From Mytilus galloprovincialis (Eukaryota; Mollusca; Bivalvia; Mytilida; Mytilidae): DNA of 64,000 bases. The position numbers and the translations under genes were made by a program. Under the pieces are notes generated by a model, which worked only from the letters and a program-made list of their open reading frames with translations, ran no database searches and had not been told where the DNA came from. Location of the stretch: positions 40,978,602-41,042,601 of the forward strand of contig NC_134850.1 in the NCBI RefSeq assembly GCF_965363235.1. The letters run 5' to 3'. Positions 4,806-63,134 of the stretch are shown here, one piece after another (positions within the stretch are counted from its first letter, which is position 1; each line of letters starts with the position of its first letter).

Positions 4806-5105
4806 TTATGCCCCACCTACGATAGTAGAGGGGCATTATGTTTTCTGGTCTGTGCGTCCGTCCGTCCGTTCGTTCGTTCGTTCGTCCGTTCGTCCGTCTG
4901 TCCCGCTTCAGGTTAAAGTTTTTGGTCGAGGTAGTTTTTGATGAAGTTGAAGTCCAATCGACTTCAAACTTGGTACACATGTTCCCTATGATATGATCTT
5001 TCTAATTTTAATGTCAAATTAGAGATTTTACCCCAATTTCACGGTACACTGAACATAGAAAATGATAGTGCGAGTGGGGCATTCGTGTACTGAGGACACA
5101 TTCTT
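4806..5105. mobile_element. Repeat nested inside the Penelope-like element
   Basis: It runs from 'GCCCCACCTACGATAGTAG' to 'GAGTGGGGCATTCGTGTACTG'. It contains a (TCCG/TTCG)n microsatellite at about 4856-4900 and the phrase 'ATGATCTTTCTAATTTTAATG'. On the minus strand the RT frame breaks after LYETR and resumes at KRDDF, so the insertion is clean. The flanks ACAAGA and AAAAGA may be a diverged target duplication. A related copy lies at 10633-10920. Confidence 0.65.
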
Positions 5106-5461
5106 GTTTCGTAAAGTTTTGTTTTCGACCGACCCTCATTGTCAATTTCTAGATGTAGGTCAAGATATGAGGCCGACTTAACTGTATCTGTAGTATCCTT
5201 TATCTTTAGTTCGATGGGATGAGAAGCGATCACTTTGACATAGTCACCAAATTTTGAATTATTTAGTGAAAGAACATCATCTATATAGCGGAAAGAAGAG
5301 TTAAAGGATATTGCTATCTTCTTATCTTTCTTCCTAAGAAGTTCCTGTATGAAGTCAGCCTCATAATAATAAAGAAACAAGTTGGCAAGAAGAGGGGCAC
5401 AATTTGTTCCCATTGGAATGCCGACCGCAGTCTTGAAAAACACGTCCTCCGAACGTAACAA
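5039..5461 (-). pseudogene. Reverse transcriptase palm fragment of the Penelope-like relic
   Basis: The 140-codon open frame carries the RT palm. GIPMGTNCAPLLANL starts near residue 14, and YIDD with the two catalytic aspartates sits near residue 59. The last 20 or so codons (after KTKLYETR) are not RT: they come from the repeat nested at 4806-5105, so the C-terminus is artificial. The original frame resumes at about 4803 with KRDDFSFPIVNFPSL. Confidence 0.6.
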
Positions 5462-11900: not shown

Positions 11901-14463
11901 AAAAAAAGGTAAAAAGAATTGAGAATCTAAACAGGGGAATATGTCAAAGAGACAAACAACAGGGGAATATGTCAAAAAGATAACAACCTGACCAAAGATT
12001 TAGAGCAGAAAACAGCCCAAGACCACCAATAGGTCTTCAACAGAGCAAGAAAATCCAGCACCTTGAGTTTGGCTTCAGATGACTTAATAATTTACATATA
12101 TATATTCAACAAACTACAAATTACTTGTAACTTTGTTGAATTCACAGTAAAATCAACAAAATTAGTTATTCCTCTATCCTTTATGATTGTTACCAACAAA
12201 ATTAAATGAATCTACATTATTTGCCAAAATATTATAGAAGTTAATTCAACTACAAAAAAGAAGGTCAAATGCAAATAGACTGCAGGCCTTTTGTCAGAGG
12301 GACTGTGTGAAAAATTGGTCAGTCAATATCTAGGAACCCTATTTAGAAGTAGCAAACCCTGAATAAATGTATTGGTATATAATTATTACAAAAAAGATAG
12401 AGGCAGCAGGCACTTAGTTATTTTAAACTCTTAAAATCAATGAAAAAAACTGATAAGGCCAAATAAAAATATATGTGTGGTTCCAGTAACCCGACCGACC
12501 CTAGTTAAAACCCCCCGACCCTAGAACTTTTTTTCATTTCTGAAAAATAAATTTTCAAACGATCAAATTTTGAGGATTGTGAATTAAAATAATTAAAGTC
12601 ATAGATTTCTGTCATCTGAATTTCCATCACAAGTATCTGTTATGGCTAAAATGCAACAATTCATAACAGCATGCAACAAAATTAACTAAAAATGTATCAT
12701 GACTGTTTATTTTACAACCAAACACATGTAAAAATGGTGGACTTCCGGTTGGGGCGTGTCTAATACCGGAAACAATTTTGGTAAACACACGATTTTTTTC
12801 CGGATTTTGACATTCAAAAATAAAAATAAAAAAAAAAAAAAAAAGATTTGCCGACCTACCGACCCTATTTTTTAAAAGTATGTAACCGGAACCACACATA
12901 TATTTTTATTTGGCCTAATGCCATGGTAAAAGACAAAAACTAAAAAATACAAACCGATCCACAAAACACGACATTGAAAACTAGTGACTAAGCAATATGA
13001 ATGTCACCTAAATCTAGATTCCCCTGCGAGTTAAGATCATCATTATGTTGTTGTTCACTTTTTTTGCAAGATAAAACTATGGTAGGGAGCTTTTTGTACA
13101 TGACAAAGTCAATGTGGAGTTAATTCACTGGTTTGAAAGGAAGAAAATAATTTCTTAGAATTTAAATGACATGCAGGCTAAAGGAATGAACAAAATTACA
13201 ATAAAACAAAACCATCTGATTTATTATAATATAATCAACGAGTTCATTTACTAATCAATTTTACTTTTTTCAGGGTTACTGCAATGGTTTCCATGATGTT
13301 TTAAATGCTTATAATGAACTAACACCCAATGTAAGGTTGAGTGGACCTACAAGTTTTGCACCATTGATACGTCAGGCTATAGATACAGTGAAAAAAACTA
13401 AATCTGTAAGTGTTTATTTAAATTAATTTACAAATGTATATAAATACAAGGGTTATGTGTTATTGAAAAGATGATCACACCAAAATATCTAATAGAAAAA
13501 AATTGGTTTAAAGACTAAAAAAGTGGCTTGCAAAGAATGATTGTTATATAATGTATCATGGTCTGTTGTTACTAACGACCATTTAAATATGTTGAAATAT
13601 AAAATGTTGAAATTTCAAGAAAAATCTTTGATAAATTCCTTTATTAAATGTGTAGAACTTCAATTGGTATGCAAACATTCAGTAAATTTCAATGATTTGA
13701 GTTGAGAAACCGTAGGAGACATTGTTCACACAAAACTGGTTCTGTTGTTTGAAATTTGTCTTAAATATGACTAAGTTCTCAAAACAGAAAAATTGGAAAT
13801 TTTTTCTTTTAACAATTCCCAAAAGCAGATTGGCCATAAAACAGACTTCAACAATGAGCAAGATCTGTACTGAATGTAAAGATATTAAGGCACTTGGATG
13901 ACAAAATGTAAAACAATTCGAAATTATCAAAATTAAAAATACAAACCAATAAATGTTTTAATGAAATAACAAATGTTTTCTCTACTGCTTCTTTTTAAAA
14001 AAAAAACCCATAAAGTAACAAGCATAATAATTTGAGAAACAATTATTGATTTTATTGTTTTTATTTTCATTTGGAGCAATCCATATTCATGATGTTAGAT
14101 AGACATAAATCTCTGTGATCACCATTTATATTTTATTTATATATTTTTTTTCAGTATCACATACTTGTGATAGTTGCAGATGGACAAGTGACAAATGAAA
14201 GGGAGACAATTGATGCAATTGTTGAAGCTTCAAGATGGCCATTGTCAATTGTAATGGTTGGTGTTGGAGATGGACCCTGGGAAACTATGGAAGAATTTGA
14301 TGACAGAATCCCAGCACGAAAGTTTGACAATTTTCAATTTGTAGAATTTCACAAAATAATGTCTACAGCTAGAAATCCTCAAGCTGCATTTGCTCTACAT
14401 GCTTTAATGGAGATTCCAGATCAATATAAACTCGTCAAAAAGCATGGTCTTTTAAATTTTTGA
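8955..14463 (+). CDS. RGLG/copine-type vWA protein with N-terminal membrane segment, complete
   Basis: Exons are 8955-9255, then either 9761-9861 or 10261-10361, then 11752-11868, 13274-13405 and 14155-14463. All have GT-AG introns, and the frame closes at 319 residues. Residues 3-20 are hydrophobic ([17 protein letters not shown]). Residues about 78-101 read [20 protein letters not shown], the lead-in typical of RGLG proteins. The vWA/copine domain follows. Its metal-site motif D-Y-T-x-S is at residues 103-107, the Thr of GPTSFAP is residue 199, and the Asp of VADGQVT is residue 226. [19 protein letters not shown] and DNFQFVEF also match the family. Plant RGLG proteins end in a RING finger and act as ubiquitin ligases. 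Here the protein stops after [20 protein letters not shown], so no ligase domain is present. It may act as a membrane-tethered Ca2+/metal-dependent binding module, which is inference. Confidence 0.88.
9525..9592 (+). repeat. GACAACTCTCC-family fragment in intron 1 of the RGLG-like gene
   Basis: GTCTCTTGTGGAGAGTTGTC followed by CATTGGCAATCATACCACAT is the 3' end typical of this mussel repeat; only about 68 bp remain. Confidence 0.65.
9761..9861 (+). CDS. Alternative exon A of the RGLG-like gene
   Basis: A 101-nt exon after TGCATTATAG, with donor GTATGT. It encodes the Gly split across the junction plus [11 protein letters not shown]...EMNPYQR, including the vWA metal-site DxTxS. It shares 22 of 33 residues with the next exon and has the same length and phase. 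Confidence 0.82.
10261..10361 (+). CDS. Alternative exon B of the RGLG-like gene
   Basis: A 101-nt exon after TATTTTCCTAG, with donor GTAAAC. It encodes [11 protein letters not shown]...FMNPYQQ. SLHAI and NPYQQ match the family consensus slightly better than exon A. Since 101 is not divisible by three, using both exons together would shift the frame; each alone joins 9255 to 11752 correctly. Confidence 0.84.
10633..10920 (+). repeat. Diverged copy of the repeat nested at 4806-5105
   Basis: It shares 'TATGTTTT...GGTCTGTGCAT', 'GATATGATCTTTCTAATTTT' and 'GAAAATGATAGTGTCACTG...GGACACATT' in the same order. It lies in the intron between exon B and the exon at 11752. The G-rich microsatellite part has decayed. 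Confidence 0.65.
12457..12916. mobile_element. MITE with 34-35 bp terminal inverted repeats
   Basis: The left end AGGCCAAATAAAAATATATG continues to TGTGGTTCCAGTAAC. The right end is its reverse complement with one or two changes (GTAACCGGAACCACACATAT...TTTGGCCT). It is about 460 bp, carries GACCGACCCTA motifs near both ends, and sits in the intron before exon 13274-13405. No target duplication is obvious. The 90-codon minus open frame inside carries no recognised domain. Confidence 0.7.
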
Positions 14464-29720: not shown

Positions 29721-32700
29721 ATGGGGAATGGAGCAAGTGTGAACATTACTCCAGTGAAAGGAGCTGATAGACTGAATAGGGATAATACTGTCGCCAAATC
29801 TGTGAAAAATGGGCATGGTCCTCGGTCTAGATCTACAGTGAGCGCCAGAACCAATAGATCAGACCAAAGTAAATCGTCCGGAGAAAATTATGTACCATCA
29901 AAAATCGTGAAAATGGTGAGTTTAATATATGGAGTCAAAATATATTCATGTTAACATTACTTTTCAGTGTGTAAATGTAGGCTAAATTATATCATAAAAC
30001 TGTTTTTCTTTTGGTTTGTGGTAATACAGCCATACTCCACATTTATGTTGCTTAACATGTTTGGGGAAAATATTTCGATTTCAAATCTTTCTTTTATCTC
30101 TCACAATTTATGTATGAGATTATAAAGTTTAAAGAATATTCATTCTCTGCGCTTGTTTTTATAAATTAAGTCGTAATAATTGAACATGCGATAGTGTATC
30201 TGGATTCTTCAGAAGGCTGCAATGTTGTCTATGATTTCGAGACGCCAGACTAAGTTACTTTTACTCTACGTTAAATTTTGTTTCTTCTTCTATAATCTCC
30301 GTTTTCATTCTCTCATATAGAACAGTTATTTCCTAGTTGTGCCTGATTTGGTACATATTGTGACCTTTTAAACATCATGTGGCTTATTAGACACGATAAA
30401 ATTAAATACAAATACAAATTGATAAATATATATATCTTTAATTTTTAACGCCGATGATTTAAAACAAAACATTTTGATGAAACTAAAGATTACTATATAA
30501 AAGTAGTATACAAATGATAGATATTTTATGACGTGTTATGACGTGAACTTCAGAAGGTGTCATTTTAAACATAACAAATAAAACCTATTACTTTATTTTA
30601 AATCTATGTTCTACATGTTTTTGAACTCCCGTGCATTTTTCCTTGCACTTTCTTGGTACATTAAGATATGTGCATCTCAGATAGGTACGCACCCATGTTA
30701 CCATGAATTACTATTTGAAGACATGCATATCCTCTATCAAAACTATTCCAAATGTACCAAAGAAAAGTTCACTTATACGCAATCCAATGTTGTGTGTGCT
30801 TAGTGCCGATCTGATGAGTTGATCTTTTTTCAAGCCGATTCTATAATTTATGTTTTAAATGTATGCATTGCGATTTCATCATTGTCTTATGTTAGAGAAG
30901 GCTTATTTCTTATATCTGCAATTAGTTATCAAAGGTACCAGGATTGTAATTTAGTACGCCAGACGCGCGTTTCGTCTACATAAGACTCATCAGTGACGCT
31001 CATATCAAAATAGTTATAAACCAAACAAATACAAAGTTGAAGAGCATTGAGGATTCAAAATTCCAAAAAGTTGTGCCAAATATGGCTAAGGTAATCTATG
31101 CCTGGGATAAGAAAATCCTTAGTTTTTCGAAAAATTCAAAGTTTTGTAAACAGGAAATTTATAAAAAAAAAATGACCTTCAACTTTCTTCAAATGTCTGT
31201 CCAAAGTTAGAAGCCTGTGCTTCAGTGGTTGTTGTTGATTTGCTGTATTTGGTTTTCGTTTGATGTTTCTTACAATTTAAGACTGCATATTCATTTCCTA
31301 ATGCAATAACAGATTATATACAGGGATAAGTTAACTATAGCTTTAGACAAGCAAACAACGTTGTTGTGTTGGATAGCACAAGCCTACAACTTGCTTAGTA
31401 CATAAAGTAAAAAGTTATCATTTTTTCTTATAATATAACAACTAATATATAAATATATCTATTTTAATATCTTGAAACTGAACTGAACTGTAAGCAATGA
31501 CATTTTGTTTATCTGATCGAAATAAAGCAAGTAAGCAATCCCGTTGACACATTCCAGACAAAGTCTATACATCAATATATTTACTTGTTTAAAAAAGGAC
31601 TTTAAAAGTTCAACACGAAAGTTTGATAGTCTGATAGGAAATGTACTTAAAATTCACATGTGGTAAAAATCTCCCCTAAAAGTCTTGTCGTATAACGAAT
31701 ATAAAAATAATAAAACAGTACAGTTTTGTATTTTGCGATGTTTTAACTATTAAATCATTATTATTGAAAAGTTTAACAATGTGGGAAAGAAATAATATAA
31801 GTATTTAACCGTATCATGATGAATGTGTGATTGAATTACAAAAAACTTACTTCCTTTTATGGTATTTGAACGTATTGACCTATTATTTAAAGGTCGAAAT
31901 GAATGTGAGAGCTTTGACTCATTCATCATTTATGTTCAATCATGATGAATGTATATATTTATCAAATAGTTCCCGGTCTACTACAACAGTACCTTATGGT
32001 TAAAAATTAATTATTTAAACGCGCAAAAAAAGGCGCAAGCCAGTACCGACCGTGCGAGGGCTGTATAGACAGGCAAGGTCGTCAAAAACTTCCCTCATCA
32101 TCAACAGTCCCAAACATCAATGTGGTAGAGAACATTTCATTTTAGAAGTCCCGTTTGTGACCCTCGGCATTTTTTGTTCTTTGATAGGTCTGTTGTCTCT
32201 AGACACATCCCATAAAGAACATTTTTAAATCGCCTTTCAAAAAAATACCCGTCTTCATACTAGAATTTAGAAAAACTCTTTGAATGTCAATAAGTCGTTC
32301 AAGGTTTAACAAAAGATGTTATGAATCATCTGAATTTATATTGAGCCACCACTTGTTGAAACCATGAGTGAAAATACAATTTTACCTACTATATTATTCA
32401 TAAAAGTCGCAAAATAAAAGAAAAAGAAATCATTTCATCTTGACTTCTTATGTTCAAACTATAATATGCTTGCGAATAATGATGAGATACCCTTTACGAC
32501 GAAAGATTTTTTACTCAATTTGAAGATAAATAAAAATAAAGGCTCATTTGATCCTTAAGATAGCGAAACACAGACGTTTGACGCTTGACAAAGGGCATTC
32601 CCTCATAAAATATATTGTGCAGAGATAGAGACATCATATTGTATGTGTATTTGATAACCTTCAAATCAATCTACAATTTAACAAAGCCATCATAGTTTAA

Positions 32701-35700
32701 AATTATATGTACTGAATAACATATGGAAAATATGATCAACAATGATGTTAAAACCAATTAATATTGTTTAAATGACAAATGTGTATTTTGAATCATCACG
32801 CCGTATAAATACAATTATATGCTGCTTAGCGCACTACACGTACACTTTGGTAGATATACTAGCTAATAAAAGTAGTGATATATGTTTGCATGAAAAGGCA
32901 GGGAGTTTATACAGAAATATGATTAAATAACATGGACAATTTAAACTGTTATGTGTCTTTTAACATATATAATTAATACAAAGAATAAGTTGCTTAGTCT
33001 TTAGTTTTTATGCAGTGTTATGTAGTTTAGTTAGTTTAAACATATTTATTTATAGTGGATTGGGAAACAAGTTTTGCAACTTATATTTATCCCTTTCCAC
33101 TTTGCGGGTGCGAGTGCTGCCTTGTAGTGGCATTAGCCTACTCTTTTTCGAAATCTACAAGGGTGTCTTTAACGTGCAAGATATATGGCTCTCTCTTAAC
33201 ACAGACTGTTGCTTGTATGACATTGTCTTTTTCGTCATTTTTCGTTTTGTTTCACGAGTTTGTTATAAAACATGTGACTTTTGCATCTGCATTTTATAAT
33301 TGTAAAGTTTTGAATAATAAAACTACATAGCCTCCTTGTGTTGAATAAGCACACAGCTTTATCCCTAGCATTATTTTATTATGTCTATTAATAATTTTTA
33401 GTTTGAACTGAAACTAAGGATACATCTGCCGTTTACGGACTTTCAAGGCTTAACCAAAATAATTGTTAGTTCATGTTTATTCACTCGCATCAAACTTTGA
33501 TGACATTTGATAACATAAACTGCAATTTTAAAAACATAATAGACTTAATGTTTGTTTTAATTTTTACACTTGACGGACGATATAGCCAAACATTTATTAG
33601 TTTGTCCTTTCATTAGAGTAAAAGTTAGATTTTAAACGTATGAAAGGCTCTTTCAATTGAAAAAAATTCACGCCATATATTTTTATTACTCCACAAAATA
33701 AGCATAAAATAATACAAGATAAAATAAATAAATAACTTTTTATTAAAATACATATATATGTATAAATTGCACCTATAAGTACTGCCAATTATATAATAGC
33801 TGTGGCCGTCAATGTCAGAAAGTTTAATCCTATTCTTACATATGAAATATAGCTAAGCTTTATGATATTTTTTTGTTAACAGGAAGGAAGGCGAATTTCG
33901 TTGAAATTTGCTACGTTCAAATTTGGTGACTTCCGGCAACTTACCTTCTCCGAATCACACCACTTTTATACAGACGAGGACGAGAAAACACTGGAAGAGA
34001 TACCACCACCGCATTCTCCTTACACAAGGAAAAATGAGTTCTTCGATCCGGAGGATTATGCTGAGGTTGACAAATGCGCCTCTGGTGTACGTATTAATTT
34101 ATTTAGAAAACAAATCGGACTATTTTCATCTACTTCATGCTATTTTTAATACCATGGGATAGTTTTTATTGTCAAATAAAACAAATCGTTATTATGTTGA
34201 CAAAAACAAGGTTATGTTTTAGCCAAACATTGCCTATATTTTAAACTTATTTATAAATGCGATGTGTGATATACGACTTTGAGATTGCTATCCATCAAAA
34301 AAAAAAAAAATCCCATTTTTATGTCTTTTAATACGCACGCATAGAGTAATTGACTTATAGCTAAAAAGTTCAAGAAATAGACCAGGGGTTTAAAATTCAA
34401 TCTTTAAGTTACACGAACCAAACGATATGCAAAATCAAATATCGTGGCAGAAGTCCAACATAAAAAGGCTGGTGGTTTTTCAAAAGTGAACTCACGTTAA
34501 GGCTTTTAAGTACTCAGAAAAAACCATACGTTACATTAAAGCAAAGAAAGAACACAAAAGCTGAAATGGTCTCCTTTCAAATAGATTTGTTTTAGAATAT
34601 TGTATGTTAGAAAGTAAATTTTCTGTTACTCACATTTATGATTTGAACCTATTTCAGATTCCGAAATCAAAGGCGACATCAGGGACATTAAAATCTTTAG
34701 TGTCCCTTCTAACAGACCAATACGAGGACGATATGTCAAAGGTCAGGGCCATTTATGTGTGGTTGACCTCACTCAACATCAATAAACTGTCTCATCCTTT
34801 AAAGAACCCTAAAGTTGGATACACCATGTTCTATCTTATGAAGATAAAAGAAAGACTTGGAAATTATTCCCAGCTGTTTAATAGAATGTGCAAGTAAGGC
34901 TTATGTTGAATTCTGATACTTGTGTTTTTGTTGTATGATTTCTGAGGTTGGTGATATAAAGGATTTGGGGGATTAAAACCGGTCATATTGACTCTTTTGT
35001 GCATATAATGTTATAAACTTGTCGAAATTGTCCCAAATGGTGATCTTCTTATTATATTTGGAAAAAATCAGATATATGGAAAGGCAATTGCTGAAAAAAT
35101 ATTCCATTTTCATTGAACTAGTACACATTTTTATTTAGGGGTTAGATAATTCCCGCCTTCGAGTGCAAGATTTTTTCGCTGTGTTGAAGACCCATTGGTG
35201 GCCTTCACCTCTTTCTGCTCTTGGGTCGGGTTGTTGTCTCTTGGACACATTCCCCATTTCCATTCTTAAAATTACCAACAATTACATCTTTAAGGACCAT
35301 CGGTATTTTTCTGTAATTTTTTTTTTTTGTGTATTTCATTTAAGCTTAGTAAAAAATAGAAGATACTTTTCTACAGTTTGATGTCTAATATATTAGTTTT
35401 TGCTTTTCAGTATTGCTGGAATTCCTTGTGTTGTAATACATGGATACTTAAAAGGCAACACTTATGAAATTGGACAAAAACTGGACATAAAAACTCACTA
35501 CGGTGAATGGAATGCTGTTTTAATTAGCAGTCAATGGCGTTTTGTTAATGCGTTCTGGGGCGCATGTGCTCTCGGAAGTGAGAAAGCAGTAAATGCTGCT
35601 CAGTATAAACCCGATGAGAACTACTTTGTTCCTGATCCACAGCACTTGATTCATACGCACTTTCCAGAAGAGGAAAAATGGCAGCTGTTAGAAGATCCCA

Positions 35701-38700
35701 TCACTTTTAAAGAATGGGAGGAAAAAGCATATTTAAAAGAACGATTTTTCGAGTTGGAATTACGTCTTTTATCTCATCAAGAGTGTGAAATTACTACAGA
35801 AAATGGTGAAATAGAAATGATGTTTGCGCTTCCGAAAAAGAGAGCAAAAGATTTGAAATTTATGGCATTAGTTTATATGAAGGAATTTAATGAATGGAAA
35901 ATATTAGAGGACAAAAAAGTTCAACATGACTTCATTCACGTGCCAATAGCGGAAGCACTTGTGGTGAAACTACGCTTTCCCAAACGTGGAATTTATCGAT
36001 TTGAACTCGTTGGTAAAGACACAACAATTACAGAAAAGAATTATGACTTTGATTGGGTAGCCATTTATAAAATTAAATGTGAACAAGCTGCTAGTCCATA
36101 CTCTGGATTTCCTAGAGTTGGGGCTGCTGGCTGGGGTCCAAACAATGATCATAGACTAGAGGATCTTGGATTAACTCCTCTTAAGCATACTCAAGGAATG
36201 ATATTTGCAAAAGACGGTTTCACAAAACTCAGGTTTAAATTCGAAGAACCAGAATTAGAGGACTTACAATTGTCAGTGAAAATGATAACGGTGAAAGAAT
36301 CTTTGGATGAGGTTCCGACTGAAACCGAGGGTATTCGAGTGGAATCACATGATAAGCATGTGATTGATATAGAAACAACTCCCGGTGAAGAGTCAGCAGC
36401 GTGTGTTTTTGCTCTTGTTGAAGACAAAACGTATGGATCAGTTGAAGTCAATATTTGTAATTATTTGATTGTTAGTTTTCCTATTGATGAAATAACACTG
36501 AAAGACATAGAATCAACGCGCAAAAGTAAGTTTTCATTTTGGTAGGCATTCCTATTTTTGATCCGGTATTGTACCTTTCGGATGGATAATTAGATACGGA
36601 TTGATTTATTCCAATATTTTTTTAAAGAACCCATAGCGTTAAGTTCTTACGCTTTCTTTCAAAAAAACCTTCTCATTCTGGAAGTGGAGGTTTCTGAACT
36701 AGAATCTGAAGCCAGGAGCCTGTATGTAATTCATTTGTTGTCGTTTATTGCTGAATATCATATTTGCTTTTCAGGGCGTTAGTTTTCTCATTGAATTGTT
36801 TTACATTGGAATTTAAGTTTCATTTATAGTTTGTACTGTTGTATGAATTTTGCTCATTGTTGAAAGCATATGTCGAATTTAATTTGCTTACTTCTACGTC
36901 ATTAGGTCTTTGGTGGTGAGTTGTGTCTTTGGCAAGCATACCACATCTTTTTATTTATATAGTGACATTAATAAAGGGCATCGGATGTTTTAAGTCTTTA
37001 TCCTAGTTACCCTTGGTGATTATTTTTAGGTAAATTGAAGTGAAAAATATCAAACATACATCCATGTTGTCAAAAAGTGATACAGAGAACATCAAATGTA
37101 AAAACACATCACATCAAATGCTAATGAAAAAAAGTAAGCCGTGATAGACATTCGATGATTACAATATTCTACAAAAATGTAATTTAATCGAATACAGTAC
37201 TTCAGAATATATAAAAGAAATTATTCAGTCGTGTTGCAACTAAATTGATTTTTTTTTTTGCAGCTTTGCTTTTGGCTATTGAACAGAAGAAGCTCGATTT
37301 GTTGGAAAGAGCAGTAGACATTGTAGAAACAAAAAATTACGAAAGACATATGCCAAAAGAAACTGACACAGCTCGAGATCTGATAGCACGTCTCCGTAAT
37401 ATACAACGACTAATGCATGATGTTCTGGCACTAGATAACAGAGTGTTCGCAGAGATTCGTTCATATCCGAGTCCTATTCCGGAAATTCACGATGTGATGA
37501 AAGCAGCACTGCTCCTTTTGGGAAATTTTGAAGAGGAGACAAAGGTAACTACAAAATGTAGCTATATATGGAATAGAAAAATAATATCCAAAATTTAGAA
37601 ATAAAATTTAAAAGCGTAAGGTAAAACTATGGAATTAATGTTAAGCTAAATGCCGCTAGTAGCCCCTTAAGCAGTTAAATACAGAAGCAAACTTAAAATT
37701 TAGTAAAATAAGTATAATTATGATAATTTTATTCCATTCCAAAAGACTTAAGTCAATGAGTTAATAATGTTTATATAGTACTGTACTAAAATATTATTAA
37801 GCTTTGATTTGAAAATTTTCGTTGGGTCAATTTTTTTCTGTTTGTTGTATTAAAAGTAAACATGTTTATAATATATTACTAGAATATTGCGCGGCATCTT
37901 TTTGTTACGTTCTTTGGAAAAAAATATATTTCTAATTATATATACATTAGATATTTTACAGAAAAATGTATTCTATATTTGCAAACACAAGTACAGTCGA
38001 TGCATACAACCATTGTTTGGTTTTCTATATTTTGTAGTACTGGGACAATGTACAAGCATTGCTGGGTAAAATTGGAAAGGAATCCATTAAAAGAAGAATA
38101 GCATTGTTTGACATTGATACACTAGAGCTGGATATAGCTTTGGGTGCTAGGAAGATGTTAGGGAATCTTCTCATTGACAATGTTAACCAGGCTAGTGCAG
38201 GGGCGGCAACATTCTATGTATGGGTACGTATCACAAGTAAAAAAAAAATATATAACAAAAAAAAAAAAAACGAACTCAAAAGCAAATTTAAAAAGTGGAA
38301 GTTCATACAAACTGTCAAAATCGAACGTTATAAATTAATTGAAGAAGTTAAACAACTGTCATATTCCTGATGCGGTACATGCATTTTACAGTTATCCTAT
38401 CCTTCCACAGGTCCATAAATAGTTGTGTGGTCTCACTACATAAGAAAAAACTATAAAAATCTGTCGAAAAAGGCTTAGCTCACCAGATCGATACAAAGAA
38501 AAACATCAAACAAAAGAACAGACAGGACGTGGCAGGGTATTTATTTATCCATCGTCATGATGTCTAACAACAAAAAGACGCATACGTACAGATCTGAGAG
38601 TACTTGCATTACTGACAGTAAGTTCAAAGCCTATAACAACTGACAAAATAAAATATGTATACACGACTGAAGTATCAATCAGTACACATCAAACATCCAA

Positions 38701-40160
38701 TGGATTTAGTGTAATGGCGTCATTATCTCATTTAGAATGCTCTGTTTAATGCATTTTTAATTATTATTTTGGTTTTAAACGGGGAAACTTATTTTAAATA
38801 AGATTGTATAAAAGAAATAAGTCAAATAGACATGGAAGTAGTAAGGATGTCTTTCTTTACGTTTGAATACATTTTTAAATTACGATGACTTTTTTTGTAA
38901 AGGTGCAAGGAATTGTCGGCGAAATGCAAAGTCGCTATTCAGATATGATTGGATTAGTTGCCCCTCGAACTCATCTTATGAGCGGACAAGGAAAGCCGCT
39001 TCAAATGGTTTTAGATGTCAATGAATATATGGCTCTTCATGACATTTGATTGCATAAAGAGGTTAAATCTGAATGTGTTGTTTGATTTTTGAACGCTTAC
39101 ACTGTGTTTACTTTGATTTTTTGTGTGGATAGATAACAATAACCAAAACGATACACAATTAGCAGTGTCAATTTCAGTACGATTTTTGTCTATCAAAGGA
39201 ACCTAGCTACTAACTTTTTAAAGATGTGATGGAAAATACTTATATTTAATGCTTTATTTTTCGTTGCATAATTGTTTAATACAGCATATATATTTGAGTG
39301 TGTGCAATGATAATTTTATCTATTGAGTGTTCAGGGGATTGTTTGTTTGTTAACTGGAACAATTGTTATATCAATTTTTACTAAGCCAATCAAATCAAGA
39401 AACAGATAAAGACGAACAACATACTTTGTTTTTGTCCATAGATTTACGAGTTTTGAACAGCGATATACTACTGTTGCCTTTATTTTATTGCAAAGTGTAT
39501 TGACATAAATTTGGCCGTTTAATTTTTTGTCACATTTTCATGTTGGATCTTTTTATGATACGGTTTGGTTTTGAATTGTTTAAGGCCGTATGGTGGCTTA
39601 CAATTCGCCGTTTCAGAATCTAATGCATCCTGGGTAATATTTTCAAAAATGTACACCAAAACGTCGTGATTGGTTAAAAATTTCATAAACAATGGAAATT
39701 CAACCAATGACGTGACGGTATTTTCATTTTGGGGTACGAACAATGAAATTACCCATAGTTCTTTAGATTCTGAAACGGCCAAATTATCTGTTATATCCAC
39801 GTCATTTGAACGCTGTCGTATGATAGTTGTCTCGTTGACAATCATGCCATATCTCCTCATTTTATATAATCTTCTTTCAATATTTTTTTTATAGTTGAAA
39901 ACAGCAATGTTTTAAATTTGGAGGTATCATCTATATTATATCATAAATGATAGGATGGGGTCCTTCAATTCTGAATGCTTAAAATGTTTAGGTTATTTTT
40001 CTCTTTTTTTTTATTTTGTGCCCATTAATCTCTATTTTATATATATATATATATTGTGCAAATCTTTAGGCTGATATAATTTTTTCCTTATCTGCATAGT
40101 ATCGCCTATTCTAGACGATCCGGTACATAGTAAATTTGCTGGTTGGTCGTTTTTTATAGA

Positions 40161-40234
<74 letters not shown>

Positions 40235-40520
40235 ACAGATTTATCCATCGGATCACCAGCAATGATGGTGATACATGGATGTGTACATTATGTATATACA
40301 ACTCGTCTTAAACATCAACCCAACAATGTTAGATCTGTTAATTTGCTTCAATATATATATATATTGTGCTCAATATTGTCTTTTCTTTATATATATTTCA
40401 TCAAATTTTAATATTCATTTGGGTCTATTTCAGATAATGGGAGTGATCGAAGAAGTGGAACGACGAAACTACAAAGTGATTGACAATACATTCCCAAGGA
40501 CAAAACGACAGAAGAAATAA
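29721..40520 (+). CDS. KY/hillarin-type pseudo-transglutaminase fused to a dynein-stalk-like domain
   Basis: Exons are 29721-29915, 33883-34086, 34658-34893, 35411-36525, 37264-37544 and 38038-38223, then one of two last exons: 38903-39049 (787 residues) or 40434-40520 (767 residues). All introns are GT-AG and phases match. The N-terminus MGNGAS is a classic myristoylation signal, followed by a basic, Ser-rich linker. Residues about 130-270 are the transglutaminase core (SKVRAIYVWLT, LFNRMCNIAGIPCVVIHGY, WNAVLISSQWRFVNAFWGA). The positions expected for Cys, His and Asp hold Leu200, Gly243 and Asn258, so it is probably not an enzyme. Residues about 300-580 resemble the beta domains that follow the core in kyphoscoliosis peptidase and hillarin. 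Residues about 585-767 are helical and match the dynein heavy chain stalk tip (EIRSY..P, LLLG, FD, AS.GAA..YVW). Likely a membrane-attached cytoskeletal adaptor (inference). A TATAAAA lies 73 bp before the ATG. Confidence 0.85.
30926..31165 (+). repeat. SINE- or MITE-like repeat, GCCAGACGCGCGTTTCG family
   Basis: TTATCAAAGGTACCAGGATT at the start, TACGCCAGACGCGCGTTTCG, AGACTCATCAGTGACGCTCA, AAGTTGAAGAGCATTGAGGA and CTTAGTTTTTCGAAAAATTC. It is in intron 1 of the pseudo-transglutaminase gene. Position by position it is close to 54404-54655. Confidence 0.8.
31985..32220 (+). repeat. Interspersed repeat fragment, GTGCGAGGGCTGTATAGAC
   Basis: Same family as 28620-29075: GTGCGAGGGCTGTATAGACA, GGCAAGGTCGTCAAAAACTT, then TTGTCTCTAGACACATCCC. 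Intronic. Confidence 0.6.
35105..35275 (+). repeat. Interspersed repeat fragment in intron 3
   Basis: TTGAACTAGTACACATTTTT, GTTGAAGACCCATTGGTGGC, TTGGGTCGGGTTGTTGTCTC and GACACATTCCCCATTTCCAT match the second half of 28620-29075. The 72-codon open frame there is repeat. Confidence 0.7.
36705..36960 (+). repeat. GACAACTCTCC-family copy in intron 4
   Basis: It starts GAAGCCAGGAGCCTGTATGT, passes GGCGTTAGTTTTCTCATTGA and TTTTGCTCATTGTTGAAAGC, and ends GGCAAGCATACCACATCTTT. This is one of the longer copies in the window. Confidence 0.7.
38903..39049 (+). CDS. Alternative last exon 1 of the pseudo-transglutaminase gene
   Basis: The acceptor is TTGTAAAG at 38902. The exon encodes VQGIVGEMQSRYSDMIGLVA...NEYMALHDI and a TGA stop at 39047-39049. 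Its start VQGIVGEM completes the helix that begins with YVW in the preceding exon. Confidence 0.75.
   Translation: MQGIVGEMQSRYSDMIGLVAPRTHLMSGQGKPLQMVLDVNEYMALHDI
39545..39865 (+). repeat. GACAACTCTCC-family copy split by a nested element
   Basis: TTGTTTAAGGCCGTATGGTG...CTTACAATT on the left continues as ATCTGTTATATCCACGTCAT...GTTGTCTCGTTGACAATCAT on the right, once 39606-39780 is removed. Confidence 0.7.
39606..39780. mobile_element. 175-bp MITE nested in the repeat at 39545-39865
   Basis: The ends GCCGTTTCAGAATCTAA and TTAGATTCTGAAACGGC are perfect inverted repeats. Weaker pairing continues inward (TGGGTAAT / ATTACCCA, then GATTGGTT / AACCAATG). CAATT on the left and CAAATT on the right are the probable target duplication. 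Open frames on both strands at 39519-39894 result from this palindrome and are not genes. Confidence 0.75.
40160..40232. repeat. (TA)n microsatellite
   Basis: More than 30 uninterrupted TA units, between the two alternative last exons of the pseudo-transglutaminase gene. Shorter TA runs lie at about 40040 and 40352. Confidence 0.9.
40434..40520 (+). CDS. Alternative last exon 2 of the pseudo-transglutaminase gene
   Basis: The acceptor is GTCTATTTCAG at 40433. The exon encodes IMGVIEEVERRNYKVIDN, a basic tail (PRTKRQKK) and TAA at 40518-40520, in the same phase 0 as the exon at 38903. The first residues are similar to that exon (x-x-G-[IV]-[IV]-x-E), so it is either an alternative end or the ancestral end of the gene. 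Confidence 0.7.
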   Translation: MMGVIEEVERRNYKVIDNTFPRTKRQKK

Positions 40521-60800: not shown

Positions 60801-63134
60801 ATCCATGACACACCCCTAAAGTTTTAACATTGCCTGTGATCCATTTGATTTTATCAAATTTAAATCGCTTTCTTTTAGAAGCCCCTAATAGTTAGCCTTT
60901 TGTTTTGTCAAAGTTTATTCTAGAACCCGAAGCTTTTTCGTATAAGGACAAAATTTTGAAAGTATTTTCTACAGAGTTTTCATTTTTATTAAATACTTGG
61001 GTGTCATCTGCAAACATACATAATTTGGTTTCTATAAAGTTCACTCCCTCTTCTGGTAATGTTAATCCTTCTATTTTAATGTTACCCCTAATCGCACATG
61101 CCATGGGTTTAGTCTTTATGATATACAAGAGAGGCGCTATTGGACACCCTTGCCTAGCGGAGCGAGTAATCGAAAAGTATCTTGATAAAAAACCATTGGT
61201 TTTAATACATGTAGTAGCATTGTATAATAGCATTTTTATCCATGCTCTAAATTTTCCGCCAAATTCAAATTTCTCCAATACAAAATCTATCCATATCCAT
61301 TCAACCCTATCAAACGCTTTTTGTTGATCCAAAAATAATATGATTCCTTCTTCCTCTTCGTTGTAAATATATTCTATAATGTCCTGAATCATTCGGTAAG
61401 CCTCTCTTATATTTCGACCTTTAACAAACCCCTTTTGATCGGTGTGAATAATTTTAGGCAATATTATCTTAAGTCTTTCAGATAGAATCTTTGCAATAAT
61501 TTTATAATCACAATTTAGTAAAGTTAGTGGTCTCCAATTTTTTATATTTTCCCTTTCTCCTCCTTTATGAAACAAGGTTAAGGCCCCCTTATGTTGAGAG
61601 TTACTCAAAATAGTATCATTAAAAATTTCTTGTAGTAAACTAAAGAAATCGTCTTTTATTATATCCCAGTATAAAACATAAAATTCTGATATTATGCCAT
61701 CTTCGCCAGGTGATTTGTTCTGTTTGAGTAATTTTAGTACCTTTTCTACTTCACAGATATTTATATCTCTATCTAACATTTCTTTATATTCCTTACTTAC
61801 CTTATCTATCATAAACTGACACAGTTTTTCGCCTGCTGTTTTGTCCCAGCCTTCAGTTGCAAAAAGTTTAGTATAAAATTTTACTTGTTCATTTAAGATA
61901 GAATCAATGTCACATTTATACTCACCGTTTTCTGTTTTTACACGTTGCCATAATTTGTTCCGCCCATTTTTCTTTTCTAAATTAAAAAAGTATTTGGTCG
62001 ACTACTCCCCGTCTTCGGCCCATTTAGTTCGTGATCTAATTTTTGCGGAGACTGTTTTGTTAGTATAATATTCCTTAATTTTATTTTCTATTTCTAAAAT
62101 TTTGTCACATGATTAAATTTTATTTGAATCGTTCAATTGAAGTTTCAATTTTTCAAGCTGTTTTTCTAAAACTATGACATAATTTTGTTTTGATAAACGG
62201 TTTAGTTTTTGACTAATTTCCATGGTCAAAAATATAATTTTTGATTAAATTTGTAACATCCCACCACTCTTGAATGCTATTAAATCGGTTCTTACTTTTA
62301 ACCCAATTTTCCCAAAACGTTTTAAATGCATTTGAAAATTCATCTGTCTTAATTGTATTTAGATTCATGATCCACATTCCCGGTCCTCTTTCAATATCAT
62401 CTAATTTTATTTTTGAAGTAACTATGTCATGATCACTAAATGGAAATGTGATAATACGTGTGTTTAAAATTTTGCAGCTAAGAGAGTTCGTACAAAAAAT
62501 GTAATCTATTCGTGATTTTGAATTGCCTCTTTGAAAACTATACCGTCTATTTGTTGGAAATTTAGACTGCCATATATCATCTAAATCAAAATTTAATAGG
62601 AGACTTTTCAACTCGTTTAAGCCTGTATCATCATTTTGATGTGAAGGGGACCTATCTAGTTTTCTATCTAACGCACAATTAAAATCTCCTACGAAGATAT
62701 TATAATGATCTGTGCCATCATCTGAATACATGTCATTTTTAGAGTTTTTCAGGTTTTCAAAAAAAAATATTCAATGACTTTAATGTTTCTGTAAATTGTT
62801 TTTTTTTTCGGAAAATTATAGGATATTTGTAGAAATTTTCATTCTAATCCCAAGTTTACTCTTAATTTCTAAGTTCATTTGTAGAAATTGAAAAATAGTA
62901 TGCAAAGGAAACAATGAAGCCGAATTTGCTGAAATGTATTCGATAAATATAATAATATGAGACAAGTGTATACACATATTTTTTATTTAAATTTCAGGTA
63001 CAAATCCCTGTGGTAGCAACAACGGTGGCTGCACTCACTTGTGCTTACCGAATAATACAGGAAACCCAGCGTATACCTGCGAATGTCCAGACAAATATGA
63101 GAAACAAGGCAACACATGTGTTGAATCCTCCTGA
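51824..63134 (+). CDS. LRP-like secreted protein: YWTD propeller plus one EGF domain
   Basis: Exons are (51824 or upstream exon)-52056, 53760-53990, 55186-55307, 55842-55972, 57312-57453 and 62998-63134. The frame is continuous to TGA at 63132-63134. From 51882 it encodes about 312 residues. They open with [11 protein letters not shown], the usual first strand after an EGF in LDL-receptor-type propellers. Blades follow with [73 protein letters not shown] and [20 protein letters not shown]. The last exon is a six-cysteine EGF domain ([25 protein letters not shown]). There are no LDLR-A repeats and no membrane segment. The start is uncertain: Met at 51824 or 51842 would give a signal peptide ([12 protein letters not shown]), but TTTTTATTTATAG at 51881 could equally be an acceptor for an upstream exon. 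Such propellers bind extracellular ligands. Confidence 0.82.
52160..52340 (-). repeat. GACAACTCTCC-family copy in intron 1 of the LRP-like gene
   Basis: AGATATAGGAAGATGTGGTG, GTGCCAATGAGACAACTCTC, AAAGTACGGCCTTCAACACG and CTTGGCTCACACCGAACAAC, in the same order as 56605-56760. The 65-codon open frame beginning at 52274 overlaps it and is not a gene. Confidence 0.75.
52990..53232 (+). repeat. Retroelement 3' end, 5'-truncated copy
   Basis: TGCCACATGTGGAGCAGGAT, CTGCTTACCCTTCCGGAGCA, ATGGCGTTGTCAGTTTGTTT, ending GGTATCTTTCGTCCCTCTTT. It is the plus-strand equivalent of the 3' non-coding region at 4195-4430. The overlapping open frames are repeat. Confidence 0.8.
53359..53562. mobile_element. 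MITE with TA-flanked inverted repeats
   Basis: The ends CTGTGAATTCATTTA and TAAATGAATCCACAG are inverted repeats with one mismatch. TTTTCGTGGATT / AATCCACGAAAA pair further in. TA flanks both ends. About 200 bp, in intron 1 of the LRP-like gene. Confidence 0.75.
54404..54655 (+). repeat. SINE- or MITE-like repeat, second full copy
   Basis: AATAGTTATCAAAGGTACCA to TTTGTAAACAGAAATTTATC. The same ordered landmarks as 30926-31165 and few differences. Confidence 0.8.
55842..55972 (+). CDS. Exon of the LRP-like gene ending at a GC donor
   Basis: It follows TCTACTTTCAG and encodes [20 protein letters not shown]...[12 protein letters not shown]. The GTAAAT at 55950 would leave the next exon out of frame. 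CAG|GCAAGT at 55973 gives the matching phase 0 and supplies the strand SKFLTCYQ that continues into GNLYYLGS. The donor is otherwise a perfect consensus, as expected for GC-AG introns. Confidence 0.72.
56035..56470 (-). repeat. Interspersed repeat copy in intron 4 of the LRP-like gene
   Basis: It starts in CCACCGAAGTCACAATTTGT, includes TTAGCTCACACCGAACAGCA, AACTAGTGTATTCAAACAG and ACCCACATCAACAAACGACA, then TGACTTAGGACAGGTACAAA. Related to 27085-27310. Confidence 0.65.
56605..57060 (-). repeat. GACAACTCTCC-family copy with an internal 33-bp tandem
   Basis: AGATATAGGAAGATGTGGTG and CCAATGAGACAACTCTCCAT at the start. The tail AGGACATGTGCAATCATTTG, GCAGCGGGATTAAACGTTTT leads to two and a half copies of a 33-bp unit (from 56972, 57005 and 57038). 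On the minus strand the tandem translates to repeats of [11 protein letters not shown] within a 105-codon open frame; I see this as repeat-derived. Confidence 0.65.
57559..58200 (+). repeat. Repeat with about 160-bp internal units (CACATGTCGC)
   Basis: It begins TACGGCCGCAAAAATTTTGA and a (GTCTGTC)n stretch. CACATGTCGC-type motifs recur at 57667, 57795, 57956 and 58114, each followed by TATCTCAGAAA-like sequence, TTATTGC and AAAACTTTACAC. It ends near AGAGCGTATCATGCTCTCGT. The open frames 57487-57841 and 57959-58159 are from this repeat. Confidence 0.7.
58618..58860 (+). repeat. Retroelement 3' end, second 5'-truncated copy
   Basis: Almost the same as 52990-53232, with the same end GGTATCTTTCGTCCCTCTTT. 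The open frames at 58735-58995 and 58743-58967 are repeat. Confidence 0.8.
60089..60813 (-). pseudogene. LINE C-terminal region in two frames
   Basis: 60813-60538 encodes [20 protein letters not shown] and [19 protein letters not shown]. The frame then shifts to 60523-60089 ([20 protein letters not shown] and further), the region after the RT thumb in L1-like ORF2. Confidence 0.65.
60892..61812 (-). pseudogene. LINE reverse transcriptase
   Basis: [14 protein letters not shown] near residue 33, [30 protein letters not shown] with the first catalytic Asp, [10 protein letters not shown], and MFADDTQVF with the catalytic Asp-Asp. The frame is open upstream as well to about 61999, so the Met is only the first in the preserved stretch. 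It ends at a stop after FDKTKG. Confidence 0.85.
62213..62731 (-). pseudogene. LINE endonuclease fragment
   Basis: C-terminal half of an APE-type endonuclease: [10 protein letters not shown] near the start, [12 protein letters not shown] and [13 protein letters not shown] with the catalytic Asp-His pair. The upstream catalytic residues are absent. The frame extends a little upstream ([11 protein letters not shown]) beyond the first Met. Confidence 0.75.

Follow-up and report, generated by a model that had tools for sequence, protein, structure and literature searches.

A stretch of 64,000 nucleotides from Mytilus galloprovincialis (C13:40978602-41042601, contig C13 being NC_134850.1; the whole stretch is referred to here as the window) contains a probable gene on its forward strand whose predicted product combines a transglutaminase-like core of the KY (kyphoscoliosis peptidase) type, devoid of its catalytic residues, with a C-terminal domain homologous to the stalk tip of dynein heavy chain. 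Seven exons, from 29721-29915 to 40434-40520, can be joined at GT/AG borders in a single open frame, as originally predicted, giving a protein of 767 amino acids (form B). The gene is not a single oddity but a member of a family within the genome. About fourteen genes appear to encode a KY-type pseudo-transglutaminase with a dynein-tip domain, without a motor or a full stalk. We consider it fairly probable that the protein is a non-catalytic, possibly lipidated scaffold, in which the dynein tip fold would be reused as a docking module.

The C-terminal domain is, judged by sequence comparison, a homologue of the dynein stalk tip, that is, of the microtubule-binding domain. The homologous tip spans about 105 residues, is colinear with dynein, and corresponds to the central part of the Pfam family PF12777 (MT). 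Exon 5 (37264..37544, residues 584-677) encodes a lead-in and the first part of the domain (EIRSY..P...), while exon 6 (38038..38223, residues 678-739) encodes the remainder and ends in SAGAATFYVW. Motifs resembling SAGAATFYVW may be present in predicted proteins from a wide range of eukaryotes. In a phmmer search of the Protein Data Bank (PDB), the C-terminus of form A, which uses an alternative last exon described below, yields six dyneins among seven matches (four dynein-2 constructs and two DNAH2), with a best E of 0.003 and alignments that run colinearly along the microtubule-binding domain. The C-terminus of form B yields seven dyneins among eight matches; the dynein rows represent only two (form A) and three (form B) different dyneins. 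The exact reversal of the C-terminus gives a single match, which is not a dynein. A profile hidden Markov model (HMM) of five dyneins scores form A with 33.2 bits and form B with 33.8 bits, against 11.5 bits for the best of 5000 shuffles, of which 3795 received a score; the exact reversal reaches -1.0. The score stays at 24.3 to 34.3 bits when each of the five dyneins is left out, and four of the five, used singly, score above all scored shuffles. Identity of the tip to the five dyneins is 22-27%. Profile-profile comparison of both forms with the five dyneins reaches 94.5%, with a pairwise E of 7.6e-8 over 108 columns. The similarity to the stalk tip that was originally proposed from the order of residues is thus borne out by profile, shuffle, reversal and family-profile tests.

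The family was recovered by searching the mussel's own genome, comprising 1.385 Gb in 331 contigs. With the tip module as query and E up to 1, 31 exon matches were obtained, which group by position into 16 places including this gene. At five of these (C1:110.25, C4:74.40, C4:29.48, C4:94.37 and C4:101.99 Mb) no exon match lies below E 0.001, with C4:101.99 at E 0.72. A KY Ig-like exon is located upstream on the same strand within 15 kb at 14 of the 16 places, and within 4 kb at 12. Copies of exon 5 have GT at the exon boundary of the window gene in 15 of 15 cases and copies of exon 6 have AG in 14 of 14, which indicates that these copies share the intron between them. For the modules at C1:101.44 and C4:59.71 Mb, no KY exon could be recognised in 5.9 and 5.8 kb of preceding sequence, respectively, hence the module may not be restricted to KY genes. 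Upstream of the C4:59.71 Mb module (L070:3808-4242), an open frame resembles a helical hairpin.

Fourteen modules could be aligned, with C4:74.40 (exon 6 not found) and C4:101.99 (no DNA) omitted. The profile of these fourteen aligns with the five dyneins in hhalign at 98.7% and a pairwise E of 2.5e-16 over 96 columns, and the five-dynein profile scores the individual modules with 18.5 to 45.3 bits. A dynein-free profile, built from ten of the fourteen modules (C1:110.24, C1:110.25, C4:94.37 and C4:29.48 left out), reaches a best E of 1.2e-11 against the PDB, and the best 60 of its 76 matches are dyneins, recognised either by name or from length and position. The residues conserved in the family alignment are distributed across the entire tip. 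Pfam scans of these ten modules yield weak PF12777 matches in six (best E 0.001), this gene not being one of them, and no module place is among the 40 listed genomic matches to PF12777; a plain PF12777 scan therefore misses the family. No relatives were found in collections of virus and prokaryote contigs, which do not inform on other animals.

The transglutaminase-like core begins in exon 3 (34658..34893, residues 134-212). Exon 4 (35411..36525, residues 212-584) encodes the rest of the core, followed by an Ig-like_KY domain (residues 312-445) and a further stretch for which a low-confidence model gives beta strands. The KY-type core that was originally proposed is supported by a match to PF01841 (Transglut_core) of 23.4 bits, just above the cut-off of 23 (E 7.7e-5), and by a match of the following region to PF23265 (Ig-like_KY) of 87.8 bits (cut-off 27, E 8.6e-25). 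The Cys-His-Asp triad is absent, in agreement with the original assignment. Cys is replaced by Leu200 (34856-34858), His by Gly243 (35502-35504), and Asp by Asn258 (35547-35549). Among PDB entries, FAP246 matches the KY part best (E 1.2e-5); where the mussel protein has Gly243 and Asn258, FAP246 carries His and Asp. The original prediction had cautioned that His241 lies close to the expected His; in the local HMMER alignment His241 stands opposite another FAP246 His, two residues upstream, so that Gly243 and not His241 occupies the expected position, as far as an alignment can tell.

Loss of catalytic residues is not special to this gene and, as read from the alignments, is the rule across the alignable KY-type genes of the genome. 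The counts are drawn from 30 KY-type loci, of which 24, equal to 22 genes, are alignable at the His and Asp positions; L011, L022 and L031 share the same open frame and were counted as one gene, while the six remaining loci and KY matches beyond the 30 are left out. His is retained in 2 of the 22 genes and Asp in 6, with four of the counted genes (L033, L035, L037 and L038) being near-identical. Cys is retained in none of the 16 KY-type genes with a detected Cys exon. A whole-genome search with PF01841 returned two matches only, a PNGase-like gene (identified from its translation) and one KY gene, and consequently does not demonstrate any KY gene that retains the full triad. The genome shows a strong expansion of KY-type genes, with 86 Ig-like_KY exon matches, many of them clustered, with clusters at C1:110.18-110.26 Mb, on C4, at C13:32.1-33.4 Mb, and at C10:77.6-78.0 Mb.

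The remaining exons encode the two ends of the protein and a segment preceding the core. Exon 1 (29721..29915, residues 1-65) encodes an N-terminus beginning with MGNGAS and a basic, Ser/Thr-rich leader with 12 K/R against 4 D/E, and exon 2 (33883..34086) encodes residues 66-133. The MGNGAS N-terminus agrees with the N-myristoylation pattern. Exon 6 can be followed by either of two last exons. The exon at 40434..40520, which was originally predicted, encodes a basic C-terminal tail and ends with TAA (form B). An exon overlooked in that prediction, at 38903..39049, has the same phase, ends with TGA, and gives 787 amino acids (form A). The choice between them would alter the C-terminal tail, leaving 28 residues after exon 6 in form B or 48 in form A. 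In ungapped comparison the two last exons have a BLOSUM62 score of 31, equalled by 1 of 100,000 shuffles, and 7 of 28 identities, equalled by 27 of 100,000. Because shuffles so rarely reach either value, the pair appears to have arisen by duplication and divergence. When the module loci were searched with a regular expression, one paralog was seen to have a downstream exon resembling last exon B (AKGMIEEVE...KGRKKRR). The intron preceding last exon B contains a long TA dinucleotide repeat (40160-40232).

In the scaffold reading, the dead core would, with the KY Ig-like domains, engage a partner, comparable to the association of vertebrate KY with filamin C at the Z-disc (PMC6078408). The possibly lipidated basic N-terminus would hold the protein at a membrane, and the dynein-tip fold would provide a second docking surface. 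The partner of the tip is suggested to be another cytoskeletal or ciliary protein, or tubulin bound in a different manner, rather than a microtubule bound as by dynein. This preference derives from the replacement of dynein's tubulin-contact positions. A ciliary setting is possible, since the sole convincing PDB match of the KY part, FAP246, belongs to the ciliary central apparatus.

The contact positions were compared by alignment. Those corresponding to R3382 and R3342 of dynein, presumably microtubule contacts, are occupied in this protein by Gln728 and Lys691, respectively. K3299 and R3337 are microtubule contacts in mouse dynein-1 (PMC6629372), and the mussel protein carries Asn642 and Gln683 in their place. 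Despite Lys691, basic residues are therefore not found at the set of dynein contact positions. At the R3337 position all five dyneins have K/R, whereas the fourteen modules have Gln in 11 cases, K in 2, and H in 1. At the R3382 position K/R is present in five of five dyneins and in none of the fourteen modules (His in 1). The tip carries a net charge of -3, while segments of the five dyneins, 103-128 residues long, range from +3 to +7. Probably, the dynein tip fold has been kept and the dynein contact set has not, and dynein-like microtubule binding by this protein is considered unlikely, though not negligibly so.

Several observations count against the scaffold reading or parts of it. Both N-myristoylation at Gly2 and the resulting membrane anchor are possible features predicted from the motif. 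The joining of the gene, its splicing and its protein are read from the DNA sequence alone. The match to PF12777 that the original prediction expected for the C-terminus was not obtained, although the other comparisons reveal the relationship, and the same model scores the real human DYNC2H1 tip with 22.0 bits, under its own cut-off of 24. DYNC1H1, used singly, scores 5.5 bits against 6.5 for shuffles, which is no better than chance. Structure prediction without an alignment gave poor models, both for exon 6 alone (pLDDT 70.5, pTM 0.33) and for exon 4 alone (pLDDT 39.7). Concerning the contacts, their loss is judged by alignment, and the net charge of the paralog tips ranges from -6 to +10, so that some tips are positive. 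Of the 14 modules, 10, this one among them, have a basic residue at the R3342 position, beside a small insertion, and in 11, although not in this one, K/R immediately precedes the R3382 position. A direct interaction of form B's basic tail with tubulin or lipids is also conceivable.

Some of these observations lend weight to the reading closest to the original prediction, in which the protein is a true microtubule adaptor, its tip binding microtubules and its lipidated N-terminus attached to a membrane, for example in cilia. The homology to the microtubule-binding domain of dynein speaks for such an adaptor, as do the ciliary nature of the KY part's only convincing PDB match, the basic tail of form B, the positive tips of several paralogs, and the frequently basic R3342 position. 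It is opposed by the replacement of the R3337 position by Gln, here and in most modules, by the loss of K/R at the R3382 position from all of them, by the negative charge of the tip, and by the short chain beyond exon 6. We regard this adaptor as unlikely, though not remote. From the originally proposed membrane-anchored adaptor, the fusion, the dead core and the tip homology have stood, whereas microtubule binding is unsupported; the proposed myristoylation signal is upheld as a pattern with a basic leader, while the anchor follows from the motif only.

It is very improbable that two adjoining genes have been misjoined, with a KY gene ending at exon 4 and a tip gene beginning at exon 5. The exon 4/5 junction is a prediction, the modules at C1:101.44 and C4:59.71 Mb suggest that KY-free modules are perhaps possible, and one AATAAA lies within the intron, though the plus strand of the window contains 98. 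However, the splice sites match in phase, and in the open frame holding exon 5 no ATG precedes the exon, though a Met does occur internally. Furthermore, the recurrence of an upstream KY exon at 14 of 16 module places is difficult to reconcile with misjoining; proximity by chance is estimated at about 3e-4 per place, assuming 50 KY loci, with tandem copies not being independent. That the tip resemblance reflects convergence of helical sequence instead of homology can be set aside almost entirely, as the silence of PF12777 on this protein, the low identity to dyneins and the one dynein scoring no better than shuffles are outweighed by the concurring shuffle, exact reversal, leave-one-out and family-profile tests and by conserved family residues distributed over the full tip.

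The scaffold reading can be placed beside several known systems. The protein shares with the KY family (PF23265 and PF01841) the succession of a transglutaminase-like core and a KY Ig-like domain. For vertebrate KY no enzymatic activity had been reported, and its domain was possibly co-opted for protein binding (PMC6078408). Vertebrate KY is nevertheless described there as retaining the putative catalytic residues, whereas the mussel protein lacks all three and has an additional dynein-tip-like domain. With dynein heavy chain, the protein shares the homologous, colinear tip, but differs in its short C-terminal end and in several replaced tubulin-contact positions. No Pfam match to an AAA+ motor ring or linker was found in the joined protein of 787 amino acids, a result that applies to this protein and not to the entire window. 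The coiled-coil segment CC2 of dynein is longer than 28 or 48 residues. The chain after exon 6 is thus too short for it, and the mussel protein is predicted to be a tip without the full antiparallel stalk of CC1 and CC2.

FAP246 is a ciliary central apparatus protein with a TGC domain (PMC9113940, PMC7999657), and its described motifs are LRR, TGC and EF-hand (PMC7999657). It is not among the PDB matches of the tip, neither for forms A and B nor within the best 60 of 76 matches of the family-only profile. Inactive or Cys-less domains kept for other roles are also found elsewhere. The domain of Cyk3 has no Cys and is nonetheless required (PMC7773586), and a survey of proteins with papain-like folds classes CC2D2A and EPB42 as inactive (PMC10318531). 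These three proteins, compared by their descriptions, have other partner domains, a dynein tip not being among those described.

Both parts of the mussel protein belong to known families; what appears to be new is their combination and its multiplication. A search of open-access literature yielded no description of this architecture, which supports novelty only weakly. The tip of the dynein stalk is usually regarded as part of the motor only. More tentatively, and with some doubt on our side, it may be a mobile animal module that in this mollusc was fused to a KY pseudo-transglutaminase and multiplied into about fourteen motor-free, membrane-anchored scaffolds, perhaps recognising tubulin or axonemal proteins in a novel manner. 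If so, the tubulin-reading domain of dynein would exist outside dynein, having undergone duplication and diversification in company with dead enzyme cores. The family would then constitute a natural set of variants from which it could be learned which residues of the dynein tip serve the fold and which serve microtubule binding, and it would point to cytoskeletal scaffolds of a kind for which no description was found.

The window contains further features in addition to this gene. A Copine C-terminal exon lies at 14119-14463 on the forward strand (PF07002, E 1.4e-37). Pieces of a LINE-like retrotransposon, with a reverse transcriptase (PF00078) and an endonuclease-like domain (PF03372), are located at 60892-62770 on the reverse strand, and another reverse transcriptase fragment, under the Pfam cut-off, is found at 5039-5461 on the same strand.

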